DNA from: Limobrevibacterium gyesilva
GTDB lineage: Bacteria > Pseudomonadota > Alphaproteobacteria > Acetobacterales > Acetobacteraceae
NCBI RefSeq assembly: GCF_025989185.1
Contig: NZ_JAPDNT010000005.1
Span: 124,001 to 188,000, forward strand
Direction: 5' to 3'
Length of the DNA stretch: 64,000 nt
Part shown: piece after piece, positions 35,466-54,291 of the stretch
Layout of the letters: every line of letters starts with the position of its first letter
How positions within the stretch are numbered: position 1 is the first letter of the stretch
Made by a program: the position numbers and the translations under genes
Notes under the pieces: generated by a model
What the model was told of the DNA's origin: nothing
The model's input: the letters and a program-made list of their open reading frames with translations, nothing else
Database searches by the model: none

Positions 35466-35780
35466 TTAACGGCGACCGAGCAGCAACCCGACTGCGAAAG
35501 CGGCGGCGGCGGCGACCATGACCGAGGTCATGGGTTGGCTTTCGACGTGCTCCAGCACATCCTTGCGGTATCGGTTGCCGCGCTCGATGGCCTGCTCGCC
35601 AATATCGCCGGCGGCCGCGGAGACCTTGCGGGCGGCTTCCCGGACCGCGGCGCCCGCCTCCGTGGCGGCGTCGCTGATCCGATGGCTCATGTCGTCCGCC
35701 GTGTTCGCGGCAGTGCCGATGGTGTCGCGGGCTTCCTTGCCCACCTGCTTGATTGTGCGGCTGTAATCGGTGTCGGTCAT
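35466..35780 (-). CDS. DUF883/ElaB-YqjD-like tail-anchored protein
   Basis: A 104-residue protein with a long amphipathic helical region rich in A, E and K (residues 10-75) and one C-terminal transmembrane helix (MTSVMVAAAAAFAVGLLLGRR) preceded by E-x-Q-P, the ElaB/YqjD plan. YqjD binds ribosomes at the inner membrane in stationary phase in E. coli; that role is only suggested here. ATG 35780 has GGAGAA 6 nt upstream. A second protein of this plan lies at 50398-50637. Confidence 0.8.
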   Translation of the reverse strand: MTDTDYSRTIKQVGKEARDTIGTAANTADDMSHRISDAATEAGAAVREAARKVSAAAGDIGEQAIERGNRYRKDVLEHVESQPMTSVMVAAAAAFAVGLLLGRR

Positions 35781-35868
35781 TGGTGTTCTCCATTGTTCTT
35801 GAGCGATCATCATCCTTTGTCCGTCGCGAGGGCGGGGGTGCGGCGCCCGCCTTTGCAGGAGATTGCGC

Positions 35869-36258
35869 TCAGGAGTTGTACTTGAAGTCCGGCAGGCTTT
35901 TCAGCATGTCCTTGGTCGCGCCCGGCAGCACCATGCGGTTGTTGCTGACCTGGAGTGAGCTGTAGGGGACCACGACGTATTTCGTCCCCATCCCGAGGAA
36001 GCCGCCGACCGAGAGCACGGCGAAGGGAACTTTCTCGTTGGGGGTAACGATCAGGTCATCGATCGTACCGACCGTCTCGTTGGCCTCGTTCACCACGGTG
36101 CTGCCCACCACCTTGGACGTGCGGTACCCCGTTGCCAAGGATTGTGGATCGACCTTCATGATGGACACAGTCTGGGGCTTGCCTTGCGCGAATACAGCGG
36201 GAGCGGACAGGCAAGCAGCCAAGGTTGCGGCGAGCGTGACATTAAAGGCGCGGTTCAT
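35869..36258 (-). CDS. Exported PRC-barrel domain protein
   Basis: A 129-residue protein with a signal peptide (MNRAFNVTLAATLAACLSAPAVFA) and a PRC-barrel domain (about 45-125) with STVVNEANETVGTIDDLIV and FAVLSVGGFLGMG. PRC-barrel proteins of this exported type are common in alphaproteobacterial stress regulons, but their function is unknown. ATG 36258 follows GGAGAA. It lies 60 bp downstream of the csbD-like gene on the same strand. Confidence 0.82.
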   Translation of the reverse strand: MNRAFNVTLAATLAACLSAPAVFAQGKPQTVSIMKVDPQSLATGYRTSKVVGSTVVNEANETVGTIDDLIVTPNEKVPFAVLSVGGFLGMGTKYVVVPYSSLQVSNNRMVLPGATKDMLKSLPDFKYNS

Positions 36259-36318
36259 CGCGTTCTCCATAAGAATATCCAACTCCGCGGGAATCGCGGA
36301 AGCTCTTTCGAGCTGCGG

Positions 36319-36489
36319 CTATTTCCGCAGCGCGTCCTTGGCGCGGCCGACGGCGCTTTGTACCTTGCCCTCGACCTTGTCGGCCTTGCCTTCGGTCTGC
36401 AGCTTGTCGTCGCCGACGGCCTTGCCGACCGCCTCCTTGACGCTACCCTTCGCCTGTTTGGCAGTGCCGATGATCCGATCCTTGTCCAT
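36319..36489 (-). CDS. CsbD family stress protein
   Basis: A 56-residue hydrophilic protein with the CsbD pattern: DRIIGTAKQAKGSVKEAVGK, then GDDKLQTEGKADKVEGKVQ. The family is induced by general stress sigma factors in many bacteria (sigma-B in Bacillus) and its function is unknown. A near-consensus EcfG promoter (GGAAC-N17-ATT) lies 110 bp upstream at 36601-36625 on this strand. Confidence 0.88.
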   Translation of the reverse strand: MDKDRIIGTAKQAKGSVKEAVGKAVGDDKLQTEGKADKVEGKVQSAVGRAKDALRK

Positions 36490-36600
36490 GACGTATCCTG
36501 TTGGTTGCGGTTTTGCCCGTTGGGGCCCGTGTTGAGTGCCGAGATCGCCTCGTGGGCGGGCCAATTGCCGCGCTGGCCGGCAGGCACTCGGTAAGGTGGT

Positions 36601-36625
36601 AATCAGAGACGAGCCGATTGGTTCC
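36601..36625 (-). promoter_or_regulatory. Near-consensus EcfG-type promoter
   Basis: Reads GGAAC (36625-36621), 17-nt spacer, ATT (36603-36601) on the minus strand, one base from GGAAC-N17-GTT. It points to the csbD-like gene. Confidence 0.35.
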
Positions 36626-36693
36626 CGGAAATCCGCAAAGATGGACAGCGAACACGGCGTGCAGGGATGGGGCCGCCAGATCCGTGCGAAGAG

Positions 36694-36718
36694 GGAACCT
36701 GGGCGACGTCGCGGCGTT
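36694..36718 (+). promoter_or_regulatory. EcfG-type promoter
   Basis: GGAAC (36694-36698), spacer of 17, GTT (36716-36718): a perfect match to the general stress sigma consensus. The start codon of the tiny lipoprotein gene is 32 bp downstream. Confidence 0.8.
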
Positions 36719-36749
36719 GTGCCTTGTGATCATTGTGCGGGAGGCTGCA

Positions 36750-36923
36750 ATGCGACTGTCGATCTTCGCCGTTCTGCTCCCTGTCTGTCTGGGTGGCTGC
36801 CTCAGCTTCACCGGAACGACGCCGGCCAAGGAGACCGTCGTGGTGCCACCGGCCAACACCACCACGGTCGTGCCGGCGCCGGCGACGGTCGTATGTTCCA
36901 ACGGACTGCGCCCGCCCTGCTGA
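36750..36923 (+). CDS. Tiny lipoprotein, 'VVCxNGxxPPC' family (copy 1)
   Basis: A 57-residue predicted lipoprotein with lipobox LGGC (Cys18) after a hydrophobic signal (MRLSIFAVLLPVC). A threonine- and valine-rich body ends VVCSNGLRPPC. Two other genes in the window (40988-41149 and 50769-50915) share the lipobox context GGC[LV]S and the C-terminal VVCxNGxxPPC, so they are paralogues. GGGAGG precedes the ATG, and a perfect EcfG promoter lies just upstream. The function is unknown; the paired cysteines suggest a disulfide in the periplasm. Confidence 0.8.
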   Translation: MRLSIFAVLLPVCLGGCLSFTGTTPAKETVVVPPANTTTVVPAPATVVCSNGLRPPC

Positions 36924-36983
36924 TTGGGTGGATTCGATCGTTCGCCGACGTTCCGGCGGCAGGGCGATGCCCTGCCGCCGTTT

Positions 36984-38282
36984 CTATGCCAGCAGGGTGA
37001 CGAACATGGCTTCGGACGCCAGCGCCATCACCAAGGTGGCGAGCCAACCGACTGTCTTCAGCACGGGGGGCAGAGCAAACTGGCCCATCACCGAGCGCCG
37101 GCTGGCGAGCAGCATGAGCATCGTCATGACCGGCGTGGCCACCACCCCGTTGACCACGGCGCTCCAGAACAGCGCTTTCACCGGGTCGATCGGTGAGAGG
37201 TTGATCAGCACGCCAAAGCCCGTGGCGATGGCGATGGTTCCGTAGAACGCCTTGGCGGCATGCGCCTTCCGCGCCAGGCCGACCGGCCAGCGGAATGTCT
37301 CGCCGAGGGCGAACGCAGCCGAGCCTGCCAGCACCGGTAACGCGAGAATGCCGGTGCCGATGATACCGAGGGCGAACAAGGTGAAGGCAAACCGTCCCGC
37401 GAGGGGGCGGAGGGCCTCAGCCGCCTCGGCGGAGGTTTGGATGTCGGTGTGGCCGCTGGCGTTCAGGGTGGCCGCCGCGGTCACCATGATGAACAGCGCC
37501 ATCACATTGGAAAATGCCATCCCGACATAGGTATCGAGGCGAATGCGCTCAAGCTCGAACGGTGCTTGATGTGGCGCCGCGCGCAGCGGCCTGGCCGTGG
37601 TGTCTTCCTTGACCTCTTCGACCTCCTGGCTGGCCTGCCAGAAGAACAGGTAGGGGCTGATGGTGGTGCCGAACACCGCAACCACGGCGGTGACGTAGGC
37701 GCTCGACCAGGCGATGTGCGGATAGACCAGGTTGAGCGCCACTGCCTCCCAGGGCACGTGGACCACGAAGGCGGTGGCGACATAGGCAAACAGCGAGAGG
37801 GTCAGCTATTTCAGGATGGCGGCGTAGCGGGAATAGTGGACGAACACTTCCAACAGCACTGAGAGAACGGCGAACACCCCGACATAGACGAGCGAGGGGC
37901 CGCCGATCAGCAGCTTGAGCGCCGCGCCCATGGCGCCGAGGTCGGCGCCGATATTGATGACATTCGCCGTCACGAGCAGCGCAACTGCAGCATGCAGGAT
38001 CCAGGAAGGGAAATGGCGGCGCAGGTTGCCGGCCAGCCCGCGCCCGGTGACCCGGCCGATCTGCGCACTGATCTGCTGGATCGCGCACATCAGCGGATAG
38101 GTGAGCAGCAATGTCCAGGCGAGGCCATATGCAAACTGCGCGCCGGCCTGGGAATAGGTGGCGATCCCGCTGGGATCGTCGTCCGACGCGCCGGTGATCA
38201 GACCGGGCCCGATGATATCGCGCAGGAGCGGACGCGCCGGCTGCCTGTCCGGAGTGCCGTGCGCGATCTGTTCTACGGTCAT
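36984..38282 (-). pseudogene. Nramp-family metal transporter interrupted by an amber stop
   Basis: Proton-coupled divalent metal (Mn/Fe) importer of the Nramp family, about 430 residues if read through. The first part (37806-38282) has the TM1 motif GLITGASDDDPSGIATYSQA, with the metal-binding DPSG. Then comes TAG at 37808-37806, after which the same frame continues with LTLSLFAYVATAFVVHVPW and the remaining helices to 36984. Relatives have Trp at the stop position, so TGG to TAG is the likely change. No start codon lies close after the stop, so this is called a pseudogene. Recoding or a sequencing error is less likely. Confidence 0.8.
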
Positions 38283-38349
38283 CTGGCGTCTCCCGTCGAT
38301 TGCAGGGGATCATTCACGGTGGGACTCCGGCGCGGGCTGGAAACGCGCT

Positions 38350-38763
38350 TTATTGCGGCCCACGAACCAACCCGACGATGAAGCCGGCAATCGCGGCGGT
38401 GGCCAGGCCGCGCATGCCGGCGCCGGAGAGCGGTCCGCCCCGAAGCGCCGGGCGCGGGGCGAGCACGAGGGCCGTGCCTGGTGGCCGGCCGGCTTTCGCT
38501 GCTTGCCTCGCGGCCAGCAGCAGACCGGCTGTGGCCAGGAGGAAGGGCCCTGCAACCACGAGCGGCGCGCCGACCGGGCCAACCCGCGGCAGGGCGAACA
38601 TCCAGAGGGCAACCAGCAGGCAATTGACCGTGGCGATTCCGGTCAGGGCGGCACAGGCGCCGAACACGACGGTCATCGCGTAGCGGTGGACGGTGCGTTT
38701 CGTATGTTCGATCCCGGCTATGCGGATCAGCGCACCCAGCGACGTCAGGAGCAGCTGCTTCAT
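38350..38763 (-). CDS. Membrane protein, unknown
   Basis: A 137-residue protein with two strong hydrophobic segments (YAMTVVFGACAALTGIATVN; VGAPLVVAGPFLLATAGLLL) in the middle and a third, weaker one at the C-terminus (LATAAIAGFIVGLV). The plan resembles small holin-superfamily/DUF1469-like envelope proteins. A near-consensus promoter, GGAAC-N17-GTA, lies about 65 bp upstream on this strand (38827-38851). I do not recognise a function. Confidence 0.6.
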   Translation of the reverse strand: MKQLLLTSLGALIRIAGIEHTKRTVHRYAMTVVFGACAALTGIATVNCLLVALWMFALPRVGPVGAPLVVAGPFLLATAGLLLAARQAAKAGRPPGTALVLAPRPALRGGPLSGAGMRGLATAAIAGFIVGLVRGPQ

Positions 38764-38826
38764 GTGACGCGAACCTCCATCGGGTGCCGGGCCGGGGCGC
38801 GGCCTGTCTTGTGCTTTCGTGTGCAA

Positions 38827-38851
38827 TACGGTCAGGACGTGAGAGAGTTCC
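38827..38851 (-). promoter_or_regulatory. Near-consensus EcfG-type promoter
   Basis: Minus strand GGAAC (38851-38847), N17, GTA (38829-38827): one base off the consensus -10. It faces the membrane-protein gene starting at 38763. Confidence 0.3.
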
Positions 38852-38935
38852 CCGTTCGGCTCGTGTCCTTTGTTTTCAGTGGCCTGCTGGCCCCTGCGTC
38901 CGCCGCAAGATGCGGCGAACTTCGGGGGCAGGACA

Positions 38936-40912
38936 CTAGCGTGCAGACGGGCGCGCGGGGGGCGGTTTGGTCGCCGTGGGAGCACCGGGGTGCGCCGCAC
39001 CCTCCCGCACCAGACTGACGCATGCGTTGTCCTCCCCGATGCCGAGCTGGATCGTGGGCAGCAGCGCCGCTGGCGGGAACAGCAGGCCGAGCCCCAGGGC
39101 GCCGGCGCCGCGCGCGCCGAGTTCCGCCGCGCCCGGGGCGAAGCGTGGGTCCTTGAGGGTGCCGGTGATGGCGATAGGCGCGGCGAGCGTGCCGATCGTG
39201 AAGTGCTTGGCCTGGGTGCGCAGCTGCGCGGCAATGGTTTCGGTGCGCAAGTCGACGCTTCCCTGCACGGTGGTGCGGTGGTCGGTGGTGTCGAGCATCA
39301 AGGTGCGGGTTCGCAGCACACCCTTGGTGAGCACGACGTCGCCCACCAGGCAGCGGATCTGTGCGCGGTCTGGAAACCCGAGCGCCGAGAGTGCCGCATT
39401 GCCGATCTGCAGCCCCGACAGATCGACGATCAGCTCGCTGACATTGCCGCCCGCCATGAAGAGCGACAGGTGGCCGTTGCCGTGGACAAGGATGTCGCTG
39501 AGCGACTTGCCCGTCGAGTCGATCTGCGCCTCTCCGCCCAGCACGCCGCTACCGTGGATGAGGTGGGTCGCGGCCAGCAGCCGCCCGACGTCGAGGCTCT
39601 GCAGCTTGATATCGGCCACAGTGTGCATGCTGTCCTGCACCGGCGTCATGTCGATCTGGCCGAGGGCCTGACCGCGGCCGACCCCGACGCGAAAGTCGGT
39701 GGCCCTGATATGCCCATCCTCGATGTCGAGGCGGGTCGCGATCGTGTCGAACGGAACCGACCGGCCGACGATGCTGTCGCCGCGATAGGCGATGTGGAAG
39801 TCGGCCGAACGGATCTTCGACAGGTCCATCGGCACGTTGGGGATCAGACGCGGGTTGGCGATTGCCTGCGCCACGGCACGCTGCTGGGCCGGGGTCTGGT
39901 CGGGTGTGCTCATGCGCCCGGGCTGCGAGCCGATCAAGCCGATGAAATCCTCGAGATCGGCCCGCCGCGACCATACGCTGCCCGTAATGACCGGGCGCGC
40001 GGGCCGGGTGTCGACGCTCAGCTCGCCGTTGAGGTCGCTGCTGCCGAGGCGCCCGGCGATGTTGGCGAGATGGAGCAGCCCGCCAGCATAGGCGACGGAG
40101 CTGGTCAGGCTGAACGGCGGCGTCGGGGGAGACGCTACGCCCGTAAGCGGATAGAGCGAGGCCATGTCCTGGCCGGAGAGCTCGAGCTTCAGGTCGGCGC
40201 CCTGCGGGTGGAACGGGTCGCTTACGGTGCCGACGAGGCTGATTCGAGACTGTCCGCTGGCCAGCCGGATATCGACGGGGTAGGGATTCGCCGGGTCGCG
40301 CAGGCTGAGCAGTGCGCCGCCGGTCAGCCGGCCGTTGATCGGCTGGCCTTGATAGGTGCCGGCGACGTCGCCGATGAGGGTTCCCTCGGCACCTCCGTCG
40401 GTGCTGATTGCGATCTCGATGTCAGCGCCGAGCGCGGGCGCGAGCACATGGGCGTGGCTGTCGCTGATACGCACCACCCCGATGGCGGGGCGTGGCCAGT
40501 GTGTACCTGTGCTGCTGGCGGGCAGGACGAGACTGTCGTTGTTCGCGCCGCTTCTTGTCTGCACGGCGGCGACGTCCATGCCGGCGATGGCAATCTCGGG
40601 GATGGTTAGCATCCGGCCATGCAGCAGTGGGTCCAGATCGAGGGCCAGCTGGAGCCGTTCGATGGTGGCGAGATAGGGGACGTCGGCGATCTCGGCGGTG
40701 CCCGCGATCCTCACCTGGGTCAGGGTGATGCGGATCGGCGAGGAGAGGCTCACGGCGAGCTGGCCAATGGTGACCTTGCGGCCGAGCGCTGCGGACGCCT
40801 CGGCCTCGACAAACGGGCGCAGCCAGCGTGGCGAGGTGGCGACCGCGAGACCGAGCAGCAGCAGGACCGCACCGGCCACGATCGGCCAGCGGCGTCTTCC
40901 TGCCCGAATCAT
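38936..40912 (-). CDS. AsmA family protein
   Basis: A large inner-membrane-anchored periplasmic protein of 658 residues. AsmA-like proteins bridge the envelope and move or sort phospholipids. The N-terminal anchor is WPIVAGAVLLLLGLAVA, then a repeating beta-rich body follows. The AsmA C-terminal region holds NVSELIVDLSGLQIGNAALSA-like text and GSVDLRTETIAAQLRTQ followed by KHFTI. The tail is proline-rich. There is no obvious operon partner, and about 170 bp separate it from the next minus-strand gene. Confidence 0.85.
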   Translation of the reverse strand: MIRAGRRRWPIVAGAVLLLLGLAVATSPRWLRPFVEAEASAALGRKVTIGQLAVSLSSPIRITLTQVRIAGTAEIADVPYLATIERLQLALDLDPLLHGRMLTIPEIAIAGMDVAAVQTRSGANNDSLVLPASSTGTHWPRPAIGVVRISDSHAHVLAPALGADIEIAISTDGGAEGTLIGDVAGTYQGQPINGRLTGGALLSLRDPANPYPVDIRLASGQSRISLVGTVSDPFHPQGADLKLELSGQDMASLYPLTGVASPPTPPFSLTSSVAYAGGLLHLANIAGRLGSSDLNGELSVDTRPARPVITGSVWSRRADLEDFIGLIGSQPGRMSTPDQTPAQQRAVAQAIANPRLIPNVPMDLSKIRSADFHIAYRGDSIVGRSVPFDTIATRLDIEDGHIRATDFRVGVGRGQALGQIDMTPVQDSMHTVADIKLQSLDVGRLLAATHLIHGSGVLGGEAQIDSTGKSLSDILVHGNGHLSLFMAGGNVSELIVDLSGLQIGNAALSALGFPDRAQIRCLVGDVVLTKGVLRTRTLMLDTTDHRTTVQGSVDLRTETIAAQLRTQAKHFTIGTLAAPIAITGTLKDPRFAPGAAELGARGAGALGLGLLFPPAALLPTIQLGIGEDNACVSLVREGAAHPGAPTATKPPPARPSAR

Positions 40913-41182: not shown

Positions 41183-41356
41183 CTAGTAGGTGTACCAGCC
41201 GAAATTGGGGCCGCCGACGAGCGCCAGAACCAGAAGAACGACCAGCAGGACGCCGATCAGGCCAAGTCCGCCGTTGCCGTAGTATTGTCGGCGATAACCG
41301 TAATATCCGCCGCCACTGAAGAGGAGGAAGAGAAGGATTACCAAGAGGAGAAGCAT
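41183..41356 (-). CDS. Small hydrophobic protein (DUF3309-like)
   Basis: Fifty-seven residues, with two hydrophobic stretches (MLLLLVILLFLLF; LGLIGVLLVVLLVLALVGG) separated by a glycine/tyrosine segment (SGGGYYGYRRQYYGNGG). The layout resembles DUF3309 proteins. ATG 41356 has GGAG 6 nt upstream. A near-consensus promoter GGAAC-N17-ATT lies at 41415-41439 on this strand. Confidence 0.7.
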   Translation of the reverse strand: MLLLLVILLFLLFSGGGYYGYRRQYYGNGGLGLIGVLLVVLLVLALVGGPNFGWYTY

Positions 41357-41414: not shown

Positions 41415-41439
41415 AATGCACGCCGAGGATCAAAGTTCC
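41415..41439 (-). promoter_or_regulatory. Near-consensus EcfG-type promoter
   Basis: Minus strand GGAAC (41439-41435), N17, ATT (41417-41415). The distance to the small membrane protein start (41356) is 59 bp, normal for this promoter class. Confidence 0.35.
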
Positions 41440-42101: not shown

Positions 42102-42494
42102 TCAGTCCGGGTGACGGAACGAGGTTTTGATGCCGAGCGCGGCGAGCGCGTCGGACAGCGCTTCGTTGTTGTAGGGCTTGCTGACCACCCGAAGCTGGGA
42201 ATCGGACGTGAAACGGCCAATGAACTGGGCGCGGTCATGGCCGCTGGCGATAACGATGGGCAAGTCTGGCCAGGTGGCGCGGATTTCCAGGACGAGCTTA
42301 TCGCCGGGGCGGTCGGGCAGGCCGATATCGATGATGGCGGCATCGAACCGCCAGCCGCCGTCGTGCACCTTGGCCATTGCCTCGGCGGCGCTCGCCGCTT
42401 CTTCGACCTGGAAGCCCGCATCGCGCAGAGTATCGACCGCGACCATGCGGATCAGCGGCTCGTCCTCGACGACGAGAATCCGGGGCGATAGCAT
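42102..42494 (-). CDS. Single-domain response regulator
   Basis: A 130-residue receiver domain with no output domain. Acidic pocket EDE (residues 10-12), phosphoacceptor Asp in IIDIGLPDR (about residue 56), Ser in IASGHD and Lys in SKPYNN are present, so it should be phosphorylatable. Single-domain regulators act as phosphate sinks or relays in alphaproteobacterial stress signalling (for example LovR or MrrA type), which fits an island with an HWE kinase and PhyR. It is transcribed alone. Confidence 0.88.
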   Translation of the reverse strand: MLSPRILVVEDEPLIRMVAVDTLRDAGFQVEEAASAAEAMAKVHDGGWRFDAAIIDIGLPDRPGDKLVLEIRATWPDLPIVIASGHDRAQFIGRFTSDSQLRVVSKPYNNEALSDALAALGIKTSFRHPD

Positions 42495-44974: not shown

Positions 44975-44999
44975 GGAACCATCAAGCGAGAGCCGCGTT
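44975..44999 (+). promoter_or_regulatory. EcfG-type promoter
   Basis: GGAAC (44975-44979), N17, GTT (44997-44999). The next bases are CC, so the reverse strand also reads GGAAC-N17-GTT. The PRC-barrel gene starts 51 bp downstream on the plus strand. Confidence 0.8.
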
Positions 45000-45049
45000 C
45001 CCATCGCTGTCGCCCATCTGGGCATTTACCCGAAGGCAGGGAGATCGGC

Positions 45050-45466
45050 ATGTCCGGCACATCGACGGGGTTTTCCAAGCCGGCCGCGGGAGAGTGCGAA
45101 GACGGTGGGTTGGCGGTCAGCGAGACGGAGCGGCTGATCGCATCGGACAAGGTAGAGAGCACTGCGGTCTATGATCACAGTGGAAACCATCTTGGCTTCG
45201 TGCAGAACGTCATGATCGACAAGTATTCCGGCCAGGTGGCCTATGCGGTGATGAGCTTCGGCGGTTTCCTTGGGCTGGGTGCGCAGTACCACCCGCTGCC
45301 GTGGAAGAAGCTTACGTATGACCGTTCGATCGGCGGATACGTGGTGGATCTCACGCGCGAGAAGCTCGAGGGCGCGCCGCATTATGCCGCCGACGAGCAG
45401 CCCTGGACCGATCCGCGGTACGGGCGCTCGGTCCATGATTACTACGACGTGCCCTATTACCTGTGA
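45050..45466 (+). CDS. Cytoplasmic PRC-barrel domain protein
   Basis: A 138-residue soluble protein. The PRC-barrel (about 30-110) contains TAVYDHSGNHLGFVQNVMID and VAYAVMSFGGFLGLG, and the tail is rich in tyrosine and aspartate. Unlike the PRC-barrel protein at 35869 it lacks a signal peptide. ATG 45050 follows AGGGAG. It lies directly downstream of a perfect EcfG promoter. The function of this stress-linked subgroup is unknown. Confidence 0.85.
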   Translation: MSGTSTGFSKPAAGECEDGGLAVSETERLIASDKVESTAVYDHSGNHLGFVQNVMIDKYSGQVAYAVMSFGGFLGLGAQYHPLPWKKLTYDRSIGGYVVDLTREKLEGAPHYAADEQPWTDPRYGRSVHDYYDVPYYL

Positions 45467-45485: not shown

Positions 45486-45510
45486 GGAACCATGCTGGTT
45501 GCAGGGTGTT
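45486..45510 (+). promoter_or_regulatory. EcfG-type promoter
   Basis: GGAAC (45486-45490), N17, GTT (45508-45510), perfect consensus. It lies between the PRC-barrel gene and the 25-residue peptide gene, whose ATG is 37 bp downstream. Confidence 0.8.
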
Positions 45511-45546: not shown

Positions 45547-45624
45547 ATGGGTCGCGGTATCCTTCTTTGGCTGCTTGGCGTTCCGATTCCGATCATCATC
45601 CTGCTTGCCTTGCTTTGGCACTGA
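45547..45624 (+). CDS. 25-residue hydrophobic peptide
   Basis: Twenty-six codons with a clear ribosome site (GGAGG, 5 nt before the ATG). The product is MGRGILLWLLGVPIPIIILL followed by ALLWH, a single membrane-spanning segment with a Pro-x-Pro kink. The perfect EcfG promoter just upstream and the next gene 4 bp downstream argue that it is a real gene. I recall similar tiny proteins in other Alphaproteobacteria; the function is unknown. Confidence 0.7.
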   Translation: MGRGILLWLLGVPIPIIILLALLWH

Positions 45625-45628: not shown

Positions 45629-46003
45629 ATGGCGGGTACAACTTCTTTATCGCGTGCGCGTGGCGACCTGCATGGAACCGCCGCGGATGGCGGTCCAGTG
45701 GGCGTGAGCCCCTCGCCGCTGCCCTGGACTGCCGTCATCGGCGGCGCAGTGGCGGCGGTCGCAATCACCCTGGTCCTGGTCACGCTGGGGTCTGGTCTGG
45801 GGCTGGCCTGGGTGTCGCCGGTGCGTGGCGACAATCCGTCGGCGGCCGGCTTCACGATCACCGCGGCTGCCTGGCTCATCGTGGTGCAATGGGTGGCGGC
45901 GGGCCTCGGCGGGTTCATCACCGGACGGCTGCGCACGAAATGGGTCGGCACGCACACCCATGAGGTGTTCTTCCGCGATACCGCGCATGGGCTCCTGACC
46001 TAG
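45629..46003 (+). pseudogene. Membrane protein truncated by an amber codon and deletion
   Basis: A 124-codon frame with two membrane segments (TAVIGGAVAAVAITLVLVTL; FTITAAAWLIVVQWVAAGL), then GGFITGRLRTKWVGTHTHEV and FFRDTAHGLLT. Relatives continue after this with W-A-x-A-T and further hydrophobic sequence. Here TAG (46001-46003) replaces the Trp codon, and the frame after it reads ATATLG before running into ferritin-gene sequence. The C-terminal third is therefore missing. It may still yield a truncated protein. It is probably co-transcribed with the 25-residue peptide from the EcfG promoter. Confidence 0.65.
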
Positions 46004-46530: not shown

Positions 46531-46599
46531 GTGGAGAGGGAGGGTGGTGGCGATCGCGCTGACGATCCGGAATTCGCGATAAGCGAGAGGAGGCAGGGC

Positions 46600-49251
46600 G
46601 TGGCCAGCAGCAGGGCGGTGACCCGGGCCATGGCGGGGAAAGGCAGCCGGCTCGCCGCCTACGCAACGAAGCGCAACTTCACCAAGACCACGGAGCCGAG
46701 CGGCGCGGACGATGTTGCGCCGGCGCCGGCGCTGCGCTTCGTCATCCAGAAACATGACGCGACGCGGCCGCACTATGACCTGCGGCTGGAGCTGGATGGT
46801 GTGTTCAAGTCCTGGGCGGTGACGCGGGGGCCCTCGCTCGATCCGCACGACAAGCGCCTGGCGGTGGAGGTCGAGGATCATCCGCTGGAGTACGGCGATT
46901 TCGAGGGGGTCATACCGGAGGGCCAGTATGGCGGCGGGACAGTTCAGCTCTGGGATCGCGGGTTCTGGACGCCGGAGGAGATGACGGCCGAGGAAGGGCT
47001 ACGGTCCGGCGAATTGAAATTCACACTGCAGGGCGAGCGACTGCACGGAAGCTGGGTGCTGGTGCGGATGAAGCACGACCGCAATGCCCGCGGAAAGGCG
47101 GTCCGGCGGACCAACTGGCTGCTGATCAAGCATCGCGATGCGGCGGCGCGAGAGGCCGACGGGGGCGCCATCCTCGCCGAGGGCCGTTCCGTGGCGTCGG
47201 GGCGGACGATGGCGGCCATCGGAGCGCGCAAGGGGCCGGCGCCGACGCCCTTCATGACGGCCGGTTCCGCCGACGCGAAAGCGGGGGTGGTGAGGCATTC
47301 GCGGCATGGCCGTGCGGCCAAGCGTCGGAAGGCGCCAGAGGCGTCGCTTCCCGACTTCATAGAACCGCAGCTCTGCCGGCTGGTGCAGCGAGCGCCTTCG
47401 GGCGCGGCTTGGGTGCACGAGATCAAGTTTGATGGCTATCGGGTTCAGTTGCGCGTCGAGGGCGGACGGGCGGTGCTGCGGACCCGCAAAGGGCTGGACT
47501 GGACCGACAAATTCTCCGCCATCGCCGATGCGGCCCGCGCCTTGCCGACCGCCATCCTGGATGGGGAGATCGTGGCGCTCGACAGCAATGGCGCACCCGA
47601 TTTCGCCGCGTTGCAGGCGGCGTTGGCCGATGACGAGACCGACGATCTGGTCTTCTTCGCCTTCGATCTTCTGTTCGCTGCTGGCGAAGATCTTCGGCCG
47701 CGCACGCTGTCAGACCGGAAGGCCGCGTTGCAGCGAATGCTGACCTCCCTGCCCGACGGTGGCGGGGCGCTGCTACGCTACGTCGATCATTTCGCGACGG
47801 GCGGGGAAGCAGTGTTGCGCTCGGCCTGCCGGCTGTCGCTGGAGGGCATCGTTTCCAAGCGGCTGGACGCGCCATACCGGTCGGGGCGCGGCGATGCCTG
47901 GACCAAGGCGAAGTGCCGCGCCGGACATGAGGTGGTGATCGGCGGCTGGGCCAGCGAAGCGGGCGAGCTGCGCTCGTTGCTGGTGGGTGTCCATCGCGGC
48001 AAACAGTTCGTGTACGTGGGACGGGTGGGCACCGGATTCACCCAGTTGGCCGCCGAGCGCGTACTGCCGCGGCTGCGGACGGTTGCCAGTGCAACCAGCC
48101 CATTCACCGGCAAGAGCGCGCCGCGGCGGGAGACGAATGTGACCTGGGCACGCCCGGAGTTGGTGGCGGAGATCGAGTTCACCGGCTGGACTGGGGCAGG
48201 GATGGTACGCCAGGCCGCGTTCAAGGGGTTGCGGGAGGACAAGCCGGCCGCGGACGTGGAGGCCGAGGCGCCGGCTCGGGAGACGACGCTGGCATGGCCG
48301 GCGACGCCTGCCAGGTCAAAGCCCGCGGCGCGGACGCCGGTTGCGGACAACGTGGTCATGGGGGTGCCGATCAGCCACCCCGGGAAAATGATGTGGCCCG
48401 ATGGCGGGGGCGGTGCGCTGGTCAGCAAGCTCGATCTCGCGCGCTACTACGAGGCGGTGGGGCAGTGGATGATCCGCCACCTGAGGGGGCGACCGTGCTC
48501 GATCCGCCGCGCGCCGGATGGCTATGGGGGCGACCAGTTCTTCCAGCGCCATGCCATGCCAGGCACGTCTAACCTGCTGGAGCTCGTGACGGTGCCGGGC
48601 GACCGCAAACCCTATCTGCAGATCGACCGGCTGGAAGGGCTGGCGGCGATGGCGCAGGTGGCTGCGCTGGAGTTGCACCCGTGGAACTGCGCGCCCGGCC
48701 GCCCGAATGTCCCGGGGCGGCTGGTGTTCGATCTCGATCCTGGCCCCGACGTCGATTTCGCGATGGTCGTCGAGGCGGCGCGGGAGATGCGCGACCGGCT
48801 GGACGCAGTCGGGCTGGTGAGCTTCTGCAAGACGACGGGAGGCAAAGGGTTGCATGTGGTGACGCCGCTGGCGGCGCCCAGGCAGCGGGGCCCTGATTGG
48901 CCGCAGGCGAAGGGGTTCGCCCGGCTGATCTGCACGCAAATGGCAAACGAGCGGCCGGATCGGTTCGTCACGAAGATGGCCAAGGCGCAGCGGGCAGGGC
49001 GGATCTTTCTCGATTATCTGCGTAACGACCGGATGTCCACCGCGGTGGCGCCACTTTCGCCACGGGCGCGGCCGGGCGCCACGGTGTCCATGCCGCTGCG
49101 GTGGACGCAGGTACGCGCGCGACTCGATCCGGGCCGGTTCACCGTGCGCACGGCGCCCGCGCTGATCGCCAGGAGCACGGCATGGCGGGACTACGAGGAC
49201 GCCTCCCGGCCGCTGGCACCGGCGATCGCGCGGCTGAGCAAGGCAGGCTGA
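46600..49251 (+). CDS. ligD: Multifunctional NHEJ DNA ligase LigD
   Basis: Repairs double-strand breaks with Ku. The 883-residue product has the order phosphoesterase-ligase-polymerase. The phosphoesterase has [14 protein letters not shown] (His52, His58). The ligase has Lys276 in [17 protein letters not shown] and [15 protein letters not shown]. The polymerase has [10 protein letters not shown], the metal ligands Asp711 and Asp713 in FDLDPG, and [11 protein letters not shown]. The GTG at 46600 was chosen because AGAGGAGG lies 6 nt upstream; ATG 46630 is an alternative. It converges on ku. Confidence 0.95.
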
Positions 49252-49365: not shown

Positions 49366-50253
49366 TCAGCCGTGACGCCGCACCGACGGGCGGGGTTTGC
49401 CCTTCGATGCCGGCGCTTTCCGCCGCTTCGGCCGGAGGGCTGGTCCCTTTTGGGAGGATTCCTCGCCGGTGAATCGGCCGAGGCTGCGTTTCAGCGTCGT
49501 CATCAGATCGATGACGTTGCTGCCGCCATCTTCATCCTCTTCGATGGCCTCGATCCCTTCGCCCTTCAGCCTGGCGTCGATCAAGCCTCTGAGGCGCGTT
49601 TCGTAGCGGTCCTCGAAATCGGCGGGGTCGTATTTGCCGGCCTGGCGGTCGATGAGCTGGGTGGCGAGCTTGATCATCTCGGGATCGGTCCCGACGCCAG
49701 CCATGTCCTCGAACAGGGCTTTCGGGCTGTTGAGGTCGCGCTGCTCGTGCAGGGTGTGGGCGACCAGGCCGTCGCCTAACGGCAAGATGGCGACCGGCCG
49801 TTCGCGGCGGGCGATAACGACACGTGAGAGCGCGGCCATGCCCGTATCGCGAATCGCCTCCCAGAGCACCTTGTAGACGTCCTGGCCCGACTTGTCGTCG
49901 GCGGCGAGGTAGTAGCTGGCGTCGAAATAGATCGGATCGATCGCGCCAGCTTTGACAAACTTGCCGATCTTCATGGTGGACGAGCTGTCCACCCGCGCGG
50001 TCTCGAAATCTTCCTCCGTGAGGATGATATAGGAGTCTTTCTTGTACTCGTAGCCCTTCACGAGGTCGCCGCGCGCGAGCTCCTCACCGGTCTCCACGTC
50101 CTGGCTTATCATGCGAATGCGGTTGCCGGTTTTCGGATTGATCAGGTTGAAATGCAGGGAACCGCTGTCGTGCTGGGCGCTGTAGAGCGCCACCGGGCAG
50201 GACACGAGCGCGAGCCGGAGATGGCCGCGCCAGATCGGACGTTGGTCCGCCAT
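49366..50253 (-). CDS. ku: Non-homologous end joining protein Ku
   Basis: Homodimeric ring that binds DNA ends and recruits LigD. It starts RPIWRGHLRLALVSCPVALY and has FNLINPKTGNRI and KGYEYKKDSYIILTEEDFE, the bacterial Ku signatures. Its 295 residues end in a basic tail (KRRKAPASKGKPRPSVRRHG), expected for end threading. ATG 50253 follows CGGAGAC. A perfect EcfG promoter starts 32 bp upstream on this strand. Stress-sigma control of Ku is documented in Sinorhizobium meliloti. Confidence 0.96.
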   Translation of the reverse strand: MADQRPIWRGHLRLALVSCPVALYSAQHDSGSLHFNLINPKTGNRIRMISQDVETGEELARGDLVKGYEYKKDSYIILTEEDFETARVDSSSTMKIGKFVKAGAIDPIYFDASYYLAADDKSGQDVYKVLWEAIRDTGMAALSRVVIARRERPVAILPLGDGLVAHTLHEQRDLNSPKALFEDMAGVGTDPEMIKLATQLIDRQAGKYDPADFEDRYETRLRGLIDARLKGEGIEAIEEDEDGGSNVIDLMTTLKRSLGRFTGEESSQKGPALRPKRRKAPASKGKPRPSVRRHG

Positions 50254-50284: not shown

Positions 50285-50309
50285 AACGCCTTGGAAGGAG
50301 CTTTGTTCC
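50285..50309 (-). promoter_or_regulatory. EcfG-type promoter of ku
   Basis: Minus strand GGAAC (50309-50305), N17, GTT (50287-50285), perfect consensus; the ku start codon is 32 bp downstream. Confidence 0.8.
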
Positions 50310-50768: not shown

Positions 50769-50915
50769 TCAGCAGGGCGGCGCGGTGCCATTCGCGCAGA
50801 CGACCGTGCTGCCTGGGGGGGCGATCACGGTCTGATGTGGCGGAGAGCTGCTGCTGAAGCTCAGGCAGCCCCCCAGGGCGAGGGGAACCAGAAGGACGAG
50901 GTGTGACAGGCGCAT
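50769..50915 (-). CDS. Tiny lipoprotein, 'VVCxNGxxPPC' family (copy 3)
   Basis: A 48-residue product: MRLSHLVLLVPLALGGC (lipobox Cys17), then LSFSSSSPPHQTVIAPPGST and the end VVCANGTAPPC. It is the shortest of the three paralogues. GGAG lies 7 nt before ATG 50915. No perfect EcfG promoter is seen upstream. Confidence 0.78.
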   Translation of the reverse strand: MRLSHLVLLVPLALGGCLSFSSSSPPHQTVIAPPGSTVVCANGTAPPC

Positions 50916-51028
50916 GCAACATCTCCGACCGTCATGAACACTACCCGGAAAATGCGCGCGTATATGGTTCGGTTCCGTGGCAATACGTGGCGGCATCGGG
51001 CAGTCACCACATCGTGTGGCCCGGCGGC

Positions 51029-51643
51029 CTACGGCGATGACGCGGCGGCGTCGTTGGTAAGTCCAGGATCGCGCCGGAAGCGGAGACGCAGATCCGAGGG
51101 GGACGTAGATGAGAGCATCTCGGCCTGGAGCTGCTCGATATAGGCGCGCATCAGGCGGCTACGCAGGAAATCGAGCGGCAATTGCTCCGACCAGCTTCCT
51201 TTCAACGACACAGTCAACAGACCGTCTTCGATATCTCCATTCACGCGCACCGTGCCGCGATTTGCCTTCGCATGGTCAAGATAGGGCGGCGCGACGACGG
51301 CGAGATACAGACCCAGGGCAATCGCCTGGTCGAGCCCAATGGATGCGTCGATCCGGCCGACATCGATCTCGACGCGCTCGAAAGCAAGGCCGGCGATCTG
51401 CTGCAATCCGGAAATCACGTCTGTGATGAGATCGGCGACGGAGACCTCGACCATCTCGCCGGTGGCATAGACCAGTCGGTAGGCGACGGCCATCGACTGG
51501 ACATGCTCCTCGATGAAGCGAAGGTCTTCACGCTGCTCCACGGGCAGCATACGCTTCTTCAGATTCATCAAGCTAACGATGACCTGGAAGTTGTTTTTGA
51601 CGCGATGGTTCAACTCCCGGAGGAGGCTTTCGGTCTTCGGCAT
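51029..51643 (-). CDS. HisKA_2-type histidine-kinase-like protein with degenerate ATPase domain
   Basis: A 204-residue protein after ecfG. Residues 8-30 form the dimerisation/phosphotransfer helix with LRELNHRVKNNFQVIVSLMN (His13). The following domain has the length of an HATPase_c fold, but where the N box should be it reads LGLYLAVVAPPYLDHAK (110-126) without the catalytic Asn, and there is no DxGxG motif. It has no sensor domain. It may act as a PhyR phosphotransfer or phosphatase protein; PhyP of Sphingomonas, also beside phyR, works as a phosphatase. ATG 51643 follows TAGGAG. Confidence 0.8.
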   Translation of the reverse strand: MPKTESLLRELNHRVKNNFQVIVSLMNLKKRMLPVEQREDLRFIEEHVQSMAVAYRLVYATGEMVEVSVADLITDVISGLQQIAGLAFERVEIDVGRIDASIGLDQAIALGLYLAVVAPPYLDHAKANRGTVRVNGDIEDGLLTVSLKGSWSEQLPLDFLRSRLMRAYIEQLQAEMLSSTSPSDLRLRFRRDPGLTNDAAASSP

Positions 51644-51754
51644 CTCGCTCCTACTTGTCCGGCAAACACCGCACCGTGCAGGCTGAGACCTGATAAATGG
51701 TTCGACTATCTGAGCCGGTATCCGCGCCGCCATATCCGCGGCGGGTAGCGCGGA

Positions 51755-52330
51755 TCAGCTTTCCATGCCCGGCGGACTCGATGCCGTCCATGCAGTATCG
51801 ACAACGGCATCCCCCGCCTCATCGTCGCCGAATTGCGGGCTCTCCGGCATTGTCAACAGTTCCGCGAGCTTCGCACGGGCCCGGTTTGCGCGGCTTTTCA
51901 TCGTCCCGACAGCGCAACCACACAATTTTGCCGCCTCCTCGTAGGACAAGCCGGACGCGCCGACAAGTATGAGCGCTTCGCGATGGTCGGGGGCCAATTT
52001 GTCGAGAGCCTCACGAACATCCAGAAGCTGCATATGCCCTTCCTGAAGCGGCCTGGTCGACAGGCGGGCGGCGTATTGGCCGTCGGTGTCCGCCACTTCG
52101 TGCCGCCGCTTGCGGAAGTCGGTATAGAACTCGTTGCGCAGGATTGTGTAGAGCCACGCGACCATGTTGGAGCCAGGTTCGAACGAGGCGAGGTTCGCCC
52201 AGGCCTTCATCAGGGTTTCCTGGACCAGATCGTCGGCCCGGGCACTGCGGCCGCACAGCGAAATGGCGAAGGCGCGGATCTTTGGCAGCGCGGCCAGAAG
52301 GTCGGCGCGGACATCGGGCGCGTCTGTCAT
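51755..52330 (-). CDS. ecfG: General stress response ECF sigma factor EcfG
   Basis: ECF sigma factor that drives the alphaproteobacterial general stress regulon. Its 191 residues include region 2 (about 10-80, with RADDLVQETLMKAWANL and WLYTILRNEFYTDFRKR) and region 4 (about 110-165, with LILVGASGLSYEEAAKLCGC). The ATG overlaps the nepR stop (ATGA), so sigma and anti-sigma are translationally coupled. Identification as EcfG rests on both sequence and the phyR-nepR neighbours. Confidence 0.95.
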   Translation of the reverse strand: MTDAPDVRADLLAALPKIRAFAISLCGRSARADDLVQETLMKAWANLASFEPGSNMVAWLYTILRNEFYTDFRKRRHEVADTDGQYAARLSTRPLQEGHMQLLDVREALDKLAPDHREALILVGASGLSYEEAAKLCGCAVGTMKSRANRARAKLAELLTMPESPQFGDDEAGDAVVDTAWTASSPPGMES

Positions 52331-52569
52331 GGCTTCTTGCCCGATTTGCAATCCAGTTCCCGCAGGAGACTCAGAAAACGCTCCGGTACCGGCTCGCGGA
52401 GCACCTCGTCGTAGACAGCACGCAACTGGCGCCCAATGTACGCCTGTAGATCCGCTGCCAGTGCCGTGGTCGGTATAGCGGCAGGGCTTTCGGCAGTCCG
52501 GCCGGCCCTTGGGGGAGGGTTGATCATGTCTTGCCTGTGGCGTGGTTTTGATCGGTCGCGCTGACCCAT
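52327..52569 (-). CDS. nepR: Anti-sigma factor NepR
   Basis: Holds EcfG inactive until phosphorylated PhyR captures it. The 80-residue product has the NepR core (residues 41-73): LQAYIGRQLRAVYDEVLREP followed by VPERFLSLLRELD, after a disordered N-terminus. ATG 52569 has GGAG 6-7 nt upstream; ATG 52527 is a weaker alternative. It overlaps ecfG by 4 bp and is divergent from phyR. Confidence 0.95.
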   Translation of the reverse strand: MGQRDRSKPRHRQDMINPPPRAGRTAESPAAIPTTALAADLQAYIGRQLRAVYDEVLREPVPERFLSLLRELDCKSGKKP

Positions 52570-52699
52570 TTTGCTCTCCAATGACGCAAAACCGGATAAG
52601 TTCCAGCAAGATGTGGTCAGACGCGACGATAGCAACCGAAGCCACGGAATGTCGCAGGCGTCACGGATCAACCGCCGGACAGCTACATCACCCCGGGCA

Positions 52700-52724
52700 A
52701 ACGGCGATCACACGAAAAAGTTCC
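52700..52724 (-). promoter_or_regulatory. EcfG-type promoter of nepR-ecfG
   Basis: Minus strand GGAAC (52724-52720), N17, GTT (52702-52700), perfect consensus. It gives a leader of about 125 nt for nepR. It predicts positive autoregulation of the sigma operon. Confidence 0.82.
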
Positions 52725-52733
52725 AGGATTAAG

Positions 52734-52758
52734 GGAACATTTGCAGCAATCGGGCGTT
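52734..52758 (+). promoter_or_regulatory. EcfG-type promoter of phyR
   Basis: GGAAC (52734-52738), N17, GTT (52756-52758), perfect consensus, 34 bp before the phyR ATG. Its -35 box lies 9 bp from the -35 box of the divergent nepR promoter. Confidence 0.85.
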
Positions 52759-52791
52759 AACGCCGGAGATTCCGGAAAGGGGGCCTTCCCG

Positions 52792-53685
52792 ATGACAGTA
52801 GGTGCCTTGATTGCACCGCACTTGCCGTATCTGCGGCGGTTCGCCCGCGCGCTCACGGGAAGCCAGCGCAGTGGAGACGCCTACGCGATGGCGACCCTGG
52901 AGGCGGTCGCGGCTGATTGCGACAATGCCCACGACGGTCCGCTCACGCGCCTCGCGCTGTTCGAAGTGTTCCTGAGGATCTGGGGTTCCCTTCCAGTCAA
53001 TAACGCCGCCGCCGACTTGCCTGCATCGCAGATCATGGATGCGGCCGACCGAACGCTTGAATCCCTTACCCCGCTGTCGCGCGTCGTCTTTCTGCTCCGC
53101 ACGGTCGAGGGCTTCACGGTGGAGGAGATTGCCGACATTTTGCGCCGTGATACCAGCGAGGTCGATTCCCTGCTGGAGTGCGCAGGGCGCGAGATCGCCG
53201 CACAACTGCGTACGAACGTACTCATCATCGAGGACGAGCCCATCATCGCCATGGACATCGAGACACTCGTCTGCGATCTCGGTCATACGGTGATGCAGAT
53301 CGCCCGCACCCACGGTGAGGCCGTCGCCGCGATCAAGAGGCAATCGCCGGGGTTGGTTCTGGCCGATATTCAGCTGGCCGACGGCAGTTCTGGCCTTGAA
53401 GCTGTCAATGAGATCCTCGGAGGAATGTCGGTGCCGGTGGTGTTCATCACGGCCTATCCCGAGCGACTACTGACAGGTGAGCGGCCGGAACCGACGTTCC
53501 TGATCACCAAGCCGTTCCAAGCAGAGACCGTCAAGGCGATCATCAGCCAGGCTCTCTTCTTCGATCGGCGAGCGTCCCTGGTGAAGGGGACCGGGATCAC
53601 CACTGGTGGCGCGAGGGAGGAGTCCGCCCACTATCCCGCGGAGCCAGACCGTGGAAGCGGCCGCCCTGGTGGTAACAATACCTGA
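52792..53685 (+). CDS. phyR: Anti-anti-sigma response regulator PhyR
   Basis: Master switch of the general stress response. When phosphorylated its sigma-like domain binds NepR and frees EcfG. The sigma-like domain is residues 1-140 (HLPYLRRFARALTG; SRVVFLLRTVEGFTVEEIAD). The receiver follows (TNVLIIEDEP, Asp192 in VLADIQLADG, Thr220 in VVFITAYPERLLTGE, Lys240). ATG 52792 was chosen because the promoter -10 element lies at 52756, ruling out the longer frame from 52741. The C-terminal 40-residue extension after the receiver (GSGRPGGNN) is unusual. Confidence 0.96.
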   Translation: MTVGALIAPHLPYLRRFARALTGSQRSGDAYAMATLEAVAADCDNAHDGPLTRLALFEVFLRIWGSLPVNNAAADLPASQIMDAADRTLESLTPLSRVVFLLRTVEGFTVEEIADILRRDTSEVDSLLECAGREIAAQLRTNVLIIEDEPIIAMDIETLVCDLGHTVMQIARTHGEAVAAIKRQSPGLVLADIQLADGSSGLEAVNEILGGMSVPVVFITAYPERLLTGERPEPTFLITKPFQAETVKAIISQALFFDRRASLVKGTGITTGGAREESAHYPAEPDRGSGRPGGNNT

Positions 53686-53802
53686 ACTTTCGTCTCACAA
53701 AAAAAAGCTCAATGGCGGCCCCGAAGCTCGCTGCGGCCGAACGACGATCCAGGCCGACCGATATTGCTGCCCGCGGGCGCGGTACCAGCAAGGAGCAAGG
53801 AC

Positions 53803-54291
53803 ATGAGCACCGAAAATCCCCGCAATCTGATCTGGAAGCATATCCACGGCATCGGGACTTGCATGATGGTGACGCATGACGGGGAGCACGTGCGCGCGCG
53901 GCCAATGACCGGCATTGTGCGGCCCGAGCAGAACGTGATCTGGTTCTTTACGGATACCCAGACCAGCAAGGACGAGGAGTTGCAACGCGACCCACGTGCA
54001 AGCCTCACGTTTGCGGACCTACGCGATCAGAACTTCGTCTCAGTTTCCGGTCGCATCACGCGTGTCCTGGACAAGGAGACGATCAGCGATCTCTGGGACG
54101 AAGGGGCGGAGGCTTATTTCCCCAACGGGCCCGATGATCCGGGCGTCGTGCTGCTGAAATTCGTCCCCGAATTTGGCGAGTACTGGGACGCACCGTCCAG
54201 CACAATCGTGATGGCGATCAAGTTCATCGAGGCGCACATCATGGGTGAGAGGCCGGACCTTGGCACCAGCGGGGCGGCAAAGTTCTCGTAG
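53803..54291 (+). CDS. Pyridoxamine 5'-phosphate oxidase-like general stress protein
   Basis: A 162-residue flavin-binding split-barrel protein of the general stress protein 26 type. It contains GTCMMVTHDGEHVRARPMTG and VIWFFTDTQTSKDEELQRDP, and ends with a W-D-A-P-S segment. Family members bind FMN or F420, and the reaction is unknown. ATG 53803 has AAGGAG about 10 nt upstream. No EcfG consensus was found in its 117-bp upstream gap; it may be read through from phyR. Confidence 0.87.
   Translation: MSTENPRNLIWKHIHGIGTCMMVTHDGEHVRARPMTGIVRPEQNVIWFFTDTQTSKDEELQRDPRASLTFADLRDQNFVSVSGRITRVLDKETISDLWDEGAEAYFPNGPDDPGVVLLKFVPEFGEYWDAPSSTIVMAIKFIEAHIMGERPDLGTSGAAKFS

Follow-up and report, generated by a model that had tools for sequence, protein, structure and literature searches.

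Two divergent PhyR-NepR-EcfG stress islands, probably acquired, in Limobrevibacterium gyesilva

Results and Discussion

The Locus and Its Regulators

We analyzed a stretch of 64,000 nucleotides of Limobrevibacterium gyesilva (the window; positions 124,001 to 188,000 of contig NZ_JAPDNT010000005.1, here C45), part of a 5.37 Mb Acetobacteraceae genome in 80 contigs that is 98.5% complete. PhyR, NepR, and EcfG, the three components of the PhyR-NepR-EcfG general stress response (GSR), are all encoded there, together with two candidate signaling proteins and a series of EcfG-type promoter sequences. Coordinates refer to the window unless a contig is named.

33208 to 35052, plus strand: PAS-rich HWE histidine kinase, a candidate PhyR-activating sensor
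51029 to 51643, minus strand: short HisKA_2 protein of 204 amino acids; carries HRVKN, an HRxxN motif, and shows no Pfam match to an ATPase domain
51755 to 52330, minus strand: EcfG sigma factor with sigma regions 2 and 4, grouping with the EcfG proteins beside phyR of named genomes
52327 to 52527, minus strand: NepR anti-sigma factor (Pfam NepR, 4.4e-16), with a 4-nt overlap with ecfG
52792 to 53685, plus strand: PhyR (PhyR_sigma2, 1.5e-21; PhyR_sigma-like, 1.1e-15; Response_reg, 4.7e-11)
36694 to 36718, plus strand: EcfG-type promoter GGAAC-N16-CGTT, 31 nt before a lipoprotein start (36750)
41415 to 41439, minus strand: EcfG-like promoter GGAAC-N16-CATT, 58 nt before the DUF3309 gene
44975 to 44999, plus strand: EcfG-type promoter GGAAC-N16-CGTT, 50 nt before a PRC-barrel gene (45050)
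45486 to 45510, plus strand: EcfG-like promoter GGAAC-N16-TGTT, 36 nt before a gene for a 25-residue peptide (45547)
50285 to 50309, minus strand: EcfG-type promoter GGAAC-N16-CGTT, 31 nt before ku (50253)
52580 to 52604, minus strand: EcfG-like promoter GGAAC-N16-CATT, 52 nt before nepR
52700 to 52724, minus strand: EcfG-type promoter GGAAC-N16-CGTT, directed toward nepR-ecfG, 172 nt before nepR (52527)
52734 to 52758, plus strand: EcfG-type promoter GGAAC-N16-CGTT, 33 nt before phyR (52792)

The pattern GGAAC-N17-GTT matches seven times at six places in the window, and all six lie within 35466-54291: 36694 (+), 44975 (+), 45486 (+), 50285-50309 (-), 52700-52724 (-), and 52734 (+). Shuffled versions of the window gave a mean of 0.80 matches, and none of 100 shuffles reached seven. 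Five of the six places have the form GGAAC-N16-CGTT, the textbook EcfG promoter; the exception, at 45486, ends in TGTT. Each place faces a downstream gene start, as the original prediction had claimed, although the gaps from the end of the -10 element span 31-172 nt and not the 30-135 bp that it gave. Its remark that all spacers are exactly 17 nt holds only because the searched pattern fixes that length; specificity is shown instead by the 13 other spacings described below. The promoter at 44975 (44975-45001) is self-palindromic and matches GGAAC-N17-GTT on both strands, with the second match at 44977 (-).

The promoters of phyR and nepR-ecfG stand back to back with their -35 boxes 9 nt apart; with GGAAC-N16-CGTT sequences before both, the switch may be autoregulated. 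In all, EcfG-like sequences precede phyR, nepR-ecfG, ku, a PRC-barrel gene, the 25-residue peptide, two lipoprotein genes, and the DUF3309 gene, in agreement with the earlier naming of Ku, PRC-barrel, a tiny lipoprotein, and a peptide as likely targets. The same scan found none before the window's HWE kinase, DUF883, first PRC-barrel, CsbD, Nramp, AsmA, response regulator, AI-2E, and pyridoxamine 5'-phosphate oxidase-like (PNPOx) genes. The site at 36694 is GC-rich, yet it is noncoding and lies 31 nt ahead of a small open reading frame (ORF) with a GGAGG sequence, so that an EcfG promoter is plausible here.

Other Genes of the Window Island

The remaining features between the tRNA gene and 54.3 kb are as follows; C24 denotes another contig of the same genome, which carries a second island.

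31921 to 31997, plus strand: tRNA-Arg(acg), after leuB, at the left edge of the variable region
about 32400 to 32950, minus strand: remnant of a presumably IS3-like transposase (IS, insertion sequence), broken reading frames, HTH_Tnp_1 in one fragment
35466 to 35780, minus strand: DUF883-like small membrane protein, match below the Pfam cutoff
35869 to 36258, minus strand: PRC-barrel protein, homologue of C24:42733-43119
36319 to 36489, minus strand: CsbD-like protein, homologue of C24:43210-43383
36750 to 36923, plus strand: putative lipoprotein of 57 amino acids, read from the sequence, similar to the 48-residue protein at 50769-50915
36984 to 38282, minus strand: Nramp-family transporter, 74.5% identical to its C24 homologue, with one in-frame TAG (37806-37808) in place of the homologue's Trp
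41183 to 41356, minus strand: DUF3309 membrane protein
42102 to 42494, minus strand: single-domain response regulator
45050 to 45466, plus strand: second PRC-barrel protein
45547 to 45624, plus strand: hydrophobic peptide of 25 amino acids, MGRGILLWLLGVPIPIIILLALLWH, with an identical copy at C24:36587-36664
45629 to 46003, plus strand: membrane-protein remnant, with a longer C24 counterpart (36742-37641, compared by eye)
46531 to 49251, plus strand: LigD, the ligase of nonhomologous end joining (NHEJ)
49366 to 50253, minus strand: Ku (NHEJ)
50769 to 50915, minus strand: putative lipoprotein of 48 amino acids, with GGAAC-N17-CATT 35 nt before its start
53803 to 54291, plus strand: PNPOx-like protein of the general stress protein type

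The tRNA gene and the IS remnant, with its HTH_Tnp_1 fragment, do adjoin the cluster, as had been stated. A second fragment of the remnant, which we take to be rve-like, has no Pfam match. An exact-pattern search of the window found no perfect EcfG site ahead of LigD. The membrane-protein remnant stops at a TAG (46001-46003) where its C24 homologue has Trp, and a ferritin-like gene without a clear start follows.

Hydrophobic peptides of 25-27 residues resembling MGRGILLWLLGVPIPIIILLALLWH were matched by pattern in 9 of 108 loci (examples are window 45547-45624; C24:36587-36664, or L032:6587; L149:8795; L154:8804; L168:4046), and in five of the nine an EcfG-like promoter lies no more than 110 nt away. 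It is possible that MGRGILLWLLGVPIPIIILLALLWH and its kin form a GSR micropeptide family. To the right of the window, at about 206.4-211.8 kb of C45 (window coordinates 82372-87815, L224), protein starts read as a type I-C CRISPR-Cas-like set.

Perfect EcfG Promoters Are Essentially Confined to Two Islands

Genome-wide, GGAAC-N17-GTT occurs 163 times and GGAAC-N16-CGTT 60 times. Ten of the 60 CGTT sites fall in about 33 kb, five in the window island and five at C24:35751-46150. All ten are noncoding, and eight have a downstream start by our script rule; sites 52700 and C24:35751 have none by that rule, but inspection by hand shows them facing nepR at 172 nt and a small ORF at 30 nt, respectively. 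We inspected the surroundings of all 50 other sites, of which 41 lie in coding frames and 9 are noncoding. When these outside sites were compared with positions 350 nt to either side, over 46 of the 48 loci (L041 and L047, with two sites each, omitted), 9/46 were noncoding at the site versus 11/46 and 11/46 at the shifted positions. Three of the nine noncoding outside sites have a downstream start by the script rule; in one of these, C23:39478, a start codon falls within the site itself.

Control spacings agree. Spacings N20-29 with CGTT give 363 sites genome-wide, about 36 per spacing, while spacing 17 gives 26, and 11/37 control-spacing sites outside the islands are noncoding. In 190.7 kb of the genome's own DNA (C45:84001-220000 and all of C24), GGAAC-N16-CGTT occurs 10 times inside the two islands and not once in the 157.6 kb outside them; 13 other spacings (11-24) give 0-2 sites each in any one part. 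The shuffles, the control spacings, and a binomial value of 4.5e-12, calculated after the clusters were known and with a summed island length of about 33.1 kb, lead us to reject a chance origin of the promoter cluster. The genome-wide density check, set beforehand as the test that could refute the claim of an island, thus turned up no similar density elsewhere. For the exact consensus only, perfect EcfG promoters are essentially confined to the two islands, and a genome-wide regulon, which is usual for a PhyR-NepR-EcfG response without defining it, is not seen.

The coding test uses a codon model trained on the genome itself and calls too few genes where composition is atypical. Random positions were called noncoding at 60/150 in the window island, 97/150 in the C24 island, 70/150 and 18/150 in the right and left flanks of the window island, 16/150 and 34/150 in the C24 flanks, and 111/300 in the phyR region of Alsobacter metallidurans, our comparison genome. 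Because the random rate in the islands is high, noncoding status there rests also on the gene starts. Controls with reversed patterns proved unreliable and sensitive to composition (e.g., 16 vs 66 in G023), and other spacings and shifted positions were used instead.

An alternative is that we are looking at an ordinary phyR neighborhood, the rest of the regulon being scattered behind degenerate promoters that an exact pattern misses. Dense phyR neighborhoods are common in Hyphomicrobiales, and the published regulon of Sphingopyxis granuli TFA comprises 104 genes in 79 putative operons with flexible -10 boxes (PMC7083833). The CATT variant has 14 sites outside the islands, counted irrespective of coding context; the three of its 17 genome sites that lie in islands stand ahead of nepR, nepR, and DUF3309. 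Against this, one-mismatch sites at spacing 16 in the 157.6 kb of flanks number 29 (21 + 8), within the 17-44 range of 13 other spacings, and the 103 sites in which GTT is preceded by A, G, or T amount to about 34 per letter, near the 36 of the CGTT control spacings, though without a control of their own.

The exact-pattern test also recovers a scattered set where one exists. A. metallidurans (NZ_BMES01000002.1; G150, via L111) has 85 CGTT sites. On its contig C1, which lacks this phyR locus, 31 of 38 sites are noncoding, compared with 7-14 of 38 when six shifted positions were tested. A start lies downstream of 24 sites, and the noncoding share differs from that of the outside sites of L. gyesilva (Fisher, 2.0e-9). 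This positive control shows that the test detects a scattered regulon where it is present. We therefore consider the ordinary-neighborhood explanation unlikely, though the most serious of the competing ones.

The clustering itself is less unusual than the original prediction supposed. In the phyR region of Alsobacter, 16 CGTT sites lie in 38 kb, all called noncoding and 15 of them within 19.6 kb. Of at least 567 relatives, we took the best-scoring 80 phyR loci in named genomes, which span no more than about 21 kb each and come mostly from Hyphomicrobiales; 25 of the 80 hold at least five GGAAC-N17-GTT matches. What does set the present genome apart is that the scattered part is missing. Alsobacter resembles it in having a clustered phyR locus with Ku nearby, a PhyR 61% identical, and two PhyR/EcfG modules, and differs in having a scattered genome-wide set as well. 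Its modules (L258/L278, G150:C2:1452001-1490000) stand at both ends of a promoter-rich 20 kb, and one of the two PhyR proteins matches in two pieces in different frames.

A Second, Divergent Island on C24

The second island, at C24:35.3-47.1 kb, has a PhyR, NepR, EcfG, and HWE kinase of its own, and much of the window cargo has homologues there. Its core (C24:38879-42574) encodes an HWE kinase with a CHASE3 domain, PhyR, NepR, and EcfG; PhyR, EcfG, and HWE were called with Pfam, and NepR by position and sequence. Around the core lie PRC-barrel, CsbD, DUF2383, PNPOx, Nramp, transglutaminase-like, DUF1328-like, and membrane proteins, of which DUF1328 and PNPOx are presumptive names, the latter given by likeness to the window copy. 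The phyR and nepR promoters repeat the back-to-back layout of the window, with CATT on the nepR side. Beyond these two island copies, the assembly holds no full PhyR or close EcfG.

Could one island be an in-genome duplicate of the other? The two share PhyR (63% identity), EcfG (67%), Nramp (74.5%), CsbD, PRC, PNPOx, and the identical 25-residue peptide, each copy of which stands behind an EcfG-type promoter. The shared cargo, the Nramp identity, and the peptide would fit a duplication; the low identities of PhyR and EcfG do not, the gene order differs, and in trees of both proteins (below) each copy has a shorter path to genes of other genomes than to its counterpart. We regard duplication as very improbable.

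Composition, Edges, and Insertion Sites

G+C content at third codon positions (GC3; ORFs of at least 90 amino acids) is 0.72-0.86 in the islands, compared with mostly 0.84-0.95 in the left flank of the window island and 0.83-0.93 in the surroundings of the C24 island (confident calls). The C24 island is flanked by an alpha/beta hydrolase and an HhH-GPD glycosylase, and its empty site can be seen in relatives: in 6 of 29 relatives' loci, the two flanking genes lie 5-48 nt apart. In two further loci the glycosylase lies 778 nt off (L321) or 928 nt off at 35% identity (L318), and the other 21 of the 29 have no glycosylase match within 1.5 kb.

In 22 of 29 relatives' loci, leuB precedes the tRNA-Arg gene. 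The first 70 nt past it, in 19 relatives and the genome itself, are mutually dissimilar by eye, and the site behind the tRNA is probably a hot spot. When the proteins encoded behind the tRNA in the 19 relatives were searched in the genome's own contigs, two weak matches appeared, one of 32% over 267 amino acids to the left of the island and one of 28% over 79 amino acids at about +76 kb. Among the longest families listed, a repeat search gave only weak ones.

Distribution and Origin of the PhyR Type

We compared gene content with relatives and found a patchy presence in the family. By best match to the window PhyR, 150 family genomes divide into 11 with the close type (L. gyesilva and ten others at 55-69% identity), 76 with a family type (33-47% identity), and 63 without a full PhyR, a split made by E-value cuts of our own setting with at most 15 candidates scored per genome. 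Among the matches listed, no genome has both types. The close type occurs in six genera from which two genomes were sampled; in five of them one genome has it and the other lacks it, and in the sixth both have it. The absent partners are 97% (G108, G118), 88% (G112), 87% (G113), and 66% (G144) complete.

Cargo goes with the close type. At least one homologue, in some cases a weak one, of CsbD, PRC, DUF883, DUF2383, PNPOx (window copy as query), transglutaminase, or Nramp occurs in 7/10 close-type loci versus 0/10 family-type loci, and a GGAAC-N17-GTT match in 7/10 versus 2/10, the family-type loci being ten of 76 taken from the top of the listing. With only 2/10 holding the pattern, family-type phyR loci may use a different promoter code. 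All ten of these loci (L091-L100) carry two EcfG-like genes.

For PhyR (60 rows) as for EcfG (61 rows), the close type forms a single clade in the tree, with Shimodaira-Hasegawa-like approximate likelihood ratio test (SH-aLRT) supports of 95 and 98. Both trees place this clade beside Alsobacter, Beijerinckiaceae, and kin (SH-aLRT 96 for PhyR, 82-88 for EcfG) and apart from the family type. The family type, in turn, is separate from the PhyR proteins of Sphingomonas and Rhodobacterales in the PhyR tree. The non-family loci are the best 80 of at least 567 relatives; 32 of them entered the PhyR tree. For the EcfG tree, matches had to reach 120 residues and were limited to two per locus, and three of 13 type loci (L083, L089, L090) yielded none. 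L131 and L088 (G073) are one and the same piece of contig, and only L088 was entered.

Vertical inheritance would hold that this PhyR type is old in the family, was lost in most lineages, and did not come from Hyphomicrobiales. The formation of one clade within the family in both trees would suit it, and approximately unbiased (AU) tests do not reject it: a position of the close type outside Hyphomicrobiales gave p 0.323, and one outside Hyphomicrobiales, Sphingomonas, and Rhodobacterales p 0.331, the constrained group omitting Denitrobaculum (Rhodospirillaceae) and one unnamed proteobacterium although both are labeled Rhiz in the trees. The distance from the family's own PhyR, the neighbors in both trees, the presence and absence within genera, the GC3 shift, and the C24 empty site all speak against vertical inheritance, which we judge improbable. 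Since the AU tests do not reject, we treat horizontal transfer of the close type as likely, not proven.

The Favored Reading

We think it probable that about 33.2-54.3 kb, the right end not being fixed, is a horizontally acquired GSR island, one of two divergent islands in this genome, that drives mainly island genes. It carries genes for a whole PhyR-NepR-EcfG switch, its own HisKA_2/HWE signaling proteins, and stress cargo, with putative EcfG promoters at several genes.

Besides the AU results, a number of observations weigh against this reading. The Nramp stop and the truncated membrane gene leave the window island partly broken, and this decay suggests that part of its cargo is no longer selected. 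GC3 is low also to the right of the island, which may therefore be part of a larger variable region, and the search with genes found behind the tRNA in 19 relatives revealed no right end or empty site. No integrase turned up when 20 proteins of the window and 10 of C24 were scanned with Pfam, and no exact 14-mer of the tRNA-Arg is repeated in C45:84001-220000 or C24. Outside the islands, the other two noncoding sites with a downstream start are possible promoters: C1:35703 lies 22 nt ahead of its start, and C56:204332 precedes the gene of a lysine-rich protein by 46 nt. Degenerate promoters would escape the exact pattern. Close-type loci L088, L089, and L090 have no cargo homologue, and L089 and L090 also no EcfG beside PhyR. 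Finally, in G052, which has the same PhyR type, 15/37 outside sites are noncoding versus 4-9 of 34-36 when shifted (Fisher p 0.029 against the L. gyesilva genome). That genome has a modest scattered set; promoter confinement is therefore not general among genomes of this type. The earlier suggestion that the response could move as a unit accordingly draws support from the divergent second island, the patchy presence, GC3, and the C24 empty site, and is weakened by the lack of an integrase or tRNA repeat and by the partial decay.

In PhyR-NepR-EcfG signaling, stress acts on an HWE kinase, PhyR is phosphorylated and captures NepR, and EcfG is released. In L. gyesilva, stress would activate the HWE kinases (candidates are 33208-35052 and the C24 kinase), phosphorylated PhyR would take NepR from EcfG, and the freed EcfG would transcribe its own operon, phyR, ku, and the PRC-barrel, lipoprotein, and micropeptide genes. 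The switch would thereby serve mainly island-borne genes. The same promoter sequence occurs in both islands, and cross-talk between them is therefore to be expected.

Comparison with Known Systems

S. granuli TFA has nepR2 overlapping ecfG1 by 4 bp behind GGAAC-N16-CGTT with phyR nearby, and its measured GSR targets include ku, csbD, and gsp (PMC7083833). The promoter of Sphingomonas melonis Fr1 is described as GGAAC-N17-20-GTT; the targets listed for this strain include ku, PRC-barrel, and general stress protein 26 (PMC6599016). The regulators and the kinds of targets are thus the same as here, but the TFA regulon takes in 79 putative operons, whereas in L. gyesilva essentially all perfect promoters lie in the two islands.

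Although there is generally one PhyR/NepR pair (PMC3892343), Sinorhizobium meliloti has two PhyR and two NepR (as told in PMC4814048), as does Sphingopyxis (PMC7083833), and EcfG2 of Rhizobium etli is plasmid-borne and belongs to the accessory genome (PMC3892343). Compared with these multicopy systems, both loci here each carry PhyR, NepR, EcfG, a kinase, and promoter-bearing cargo in foreign-looking DNA. Among the papers listed in searches on EcfG/PhyR or the GSR in connection with genomic islands, horizontal transfer, or Acetobacteraceae, we recognized no description of a GSR island.

PhyP and PhyT of S. melonis are encoded at the phyR locus and have an HRxxN motif and a degenerated ATPase part (PMC5898713). 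The protein at 51029-51643 shares the location and the motif, has no matched ATPase domain, and may be a PhyT/PhyP-like phosphotransferase or phosphatase. PhyP is membrane-anchored with a periplasmic sensor (PMC5898713), whereas the present protein is short, at 204 residues.

Implications

Global stress responses are usually seen as core regulators with chromosome-wide targets, and because the targets are so spread, lateral transfer of such a response is hard to picture. Clustering at phyR is already known in Hyphomicrobiales; what is new here is the confinement and the occurrence of two divergent, apparently acquired islands. More tentatively, and at somewhat less than even odds in our estimation, these islands may represent a self-contained, portable GSR, in which sensor, switch, sigma factor, and promoter-bearing targets move as a block from Hyphomicrobiales-like donors into a family often without PhyR and mainly control their own cargo; two coexisting blocks may be wired by one promoter code.

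If this is true, a block with both switch and targets would function on arrival and could later recruit host genes. One family may then show different stages, from no island, to an island only (this genome), to an island with some outside promoters (G052), and since these stages can be compared within one family, the growth of a regulon becomes directly testable. As a small GSR with few targets, the system also lends itself to study.

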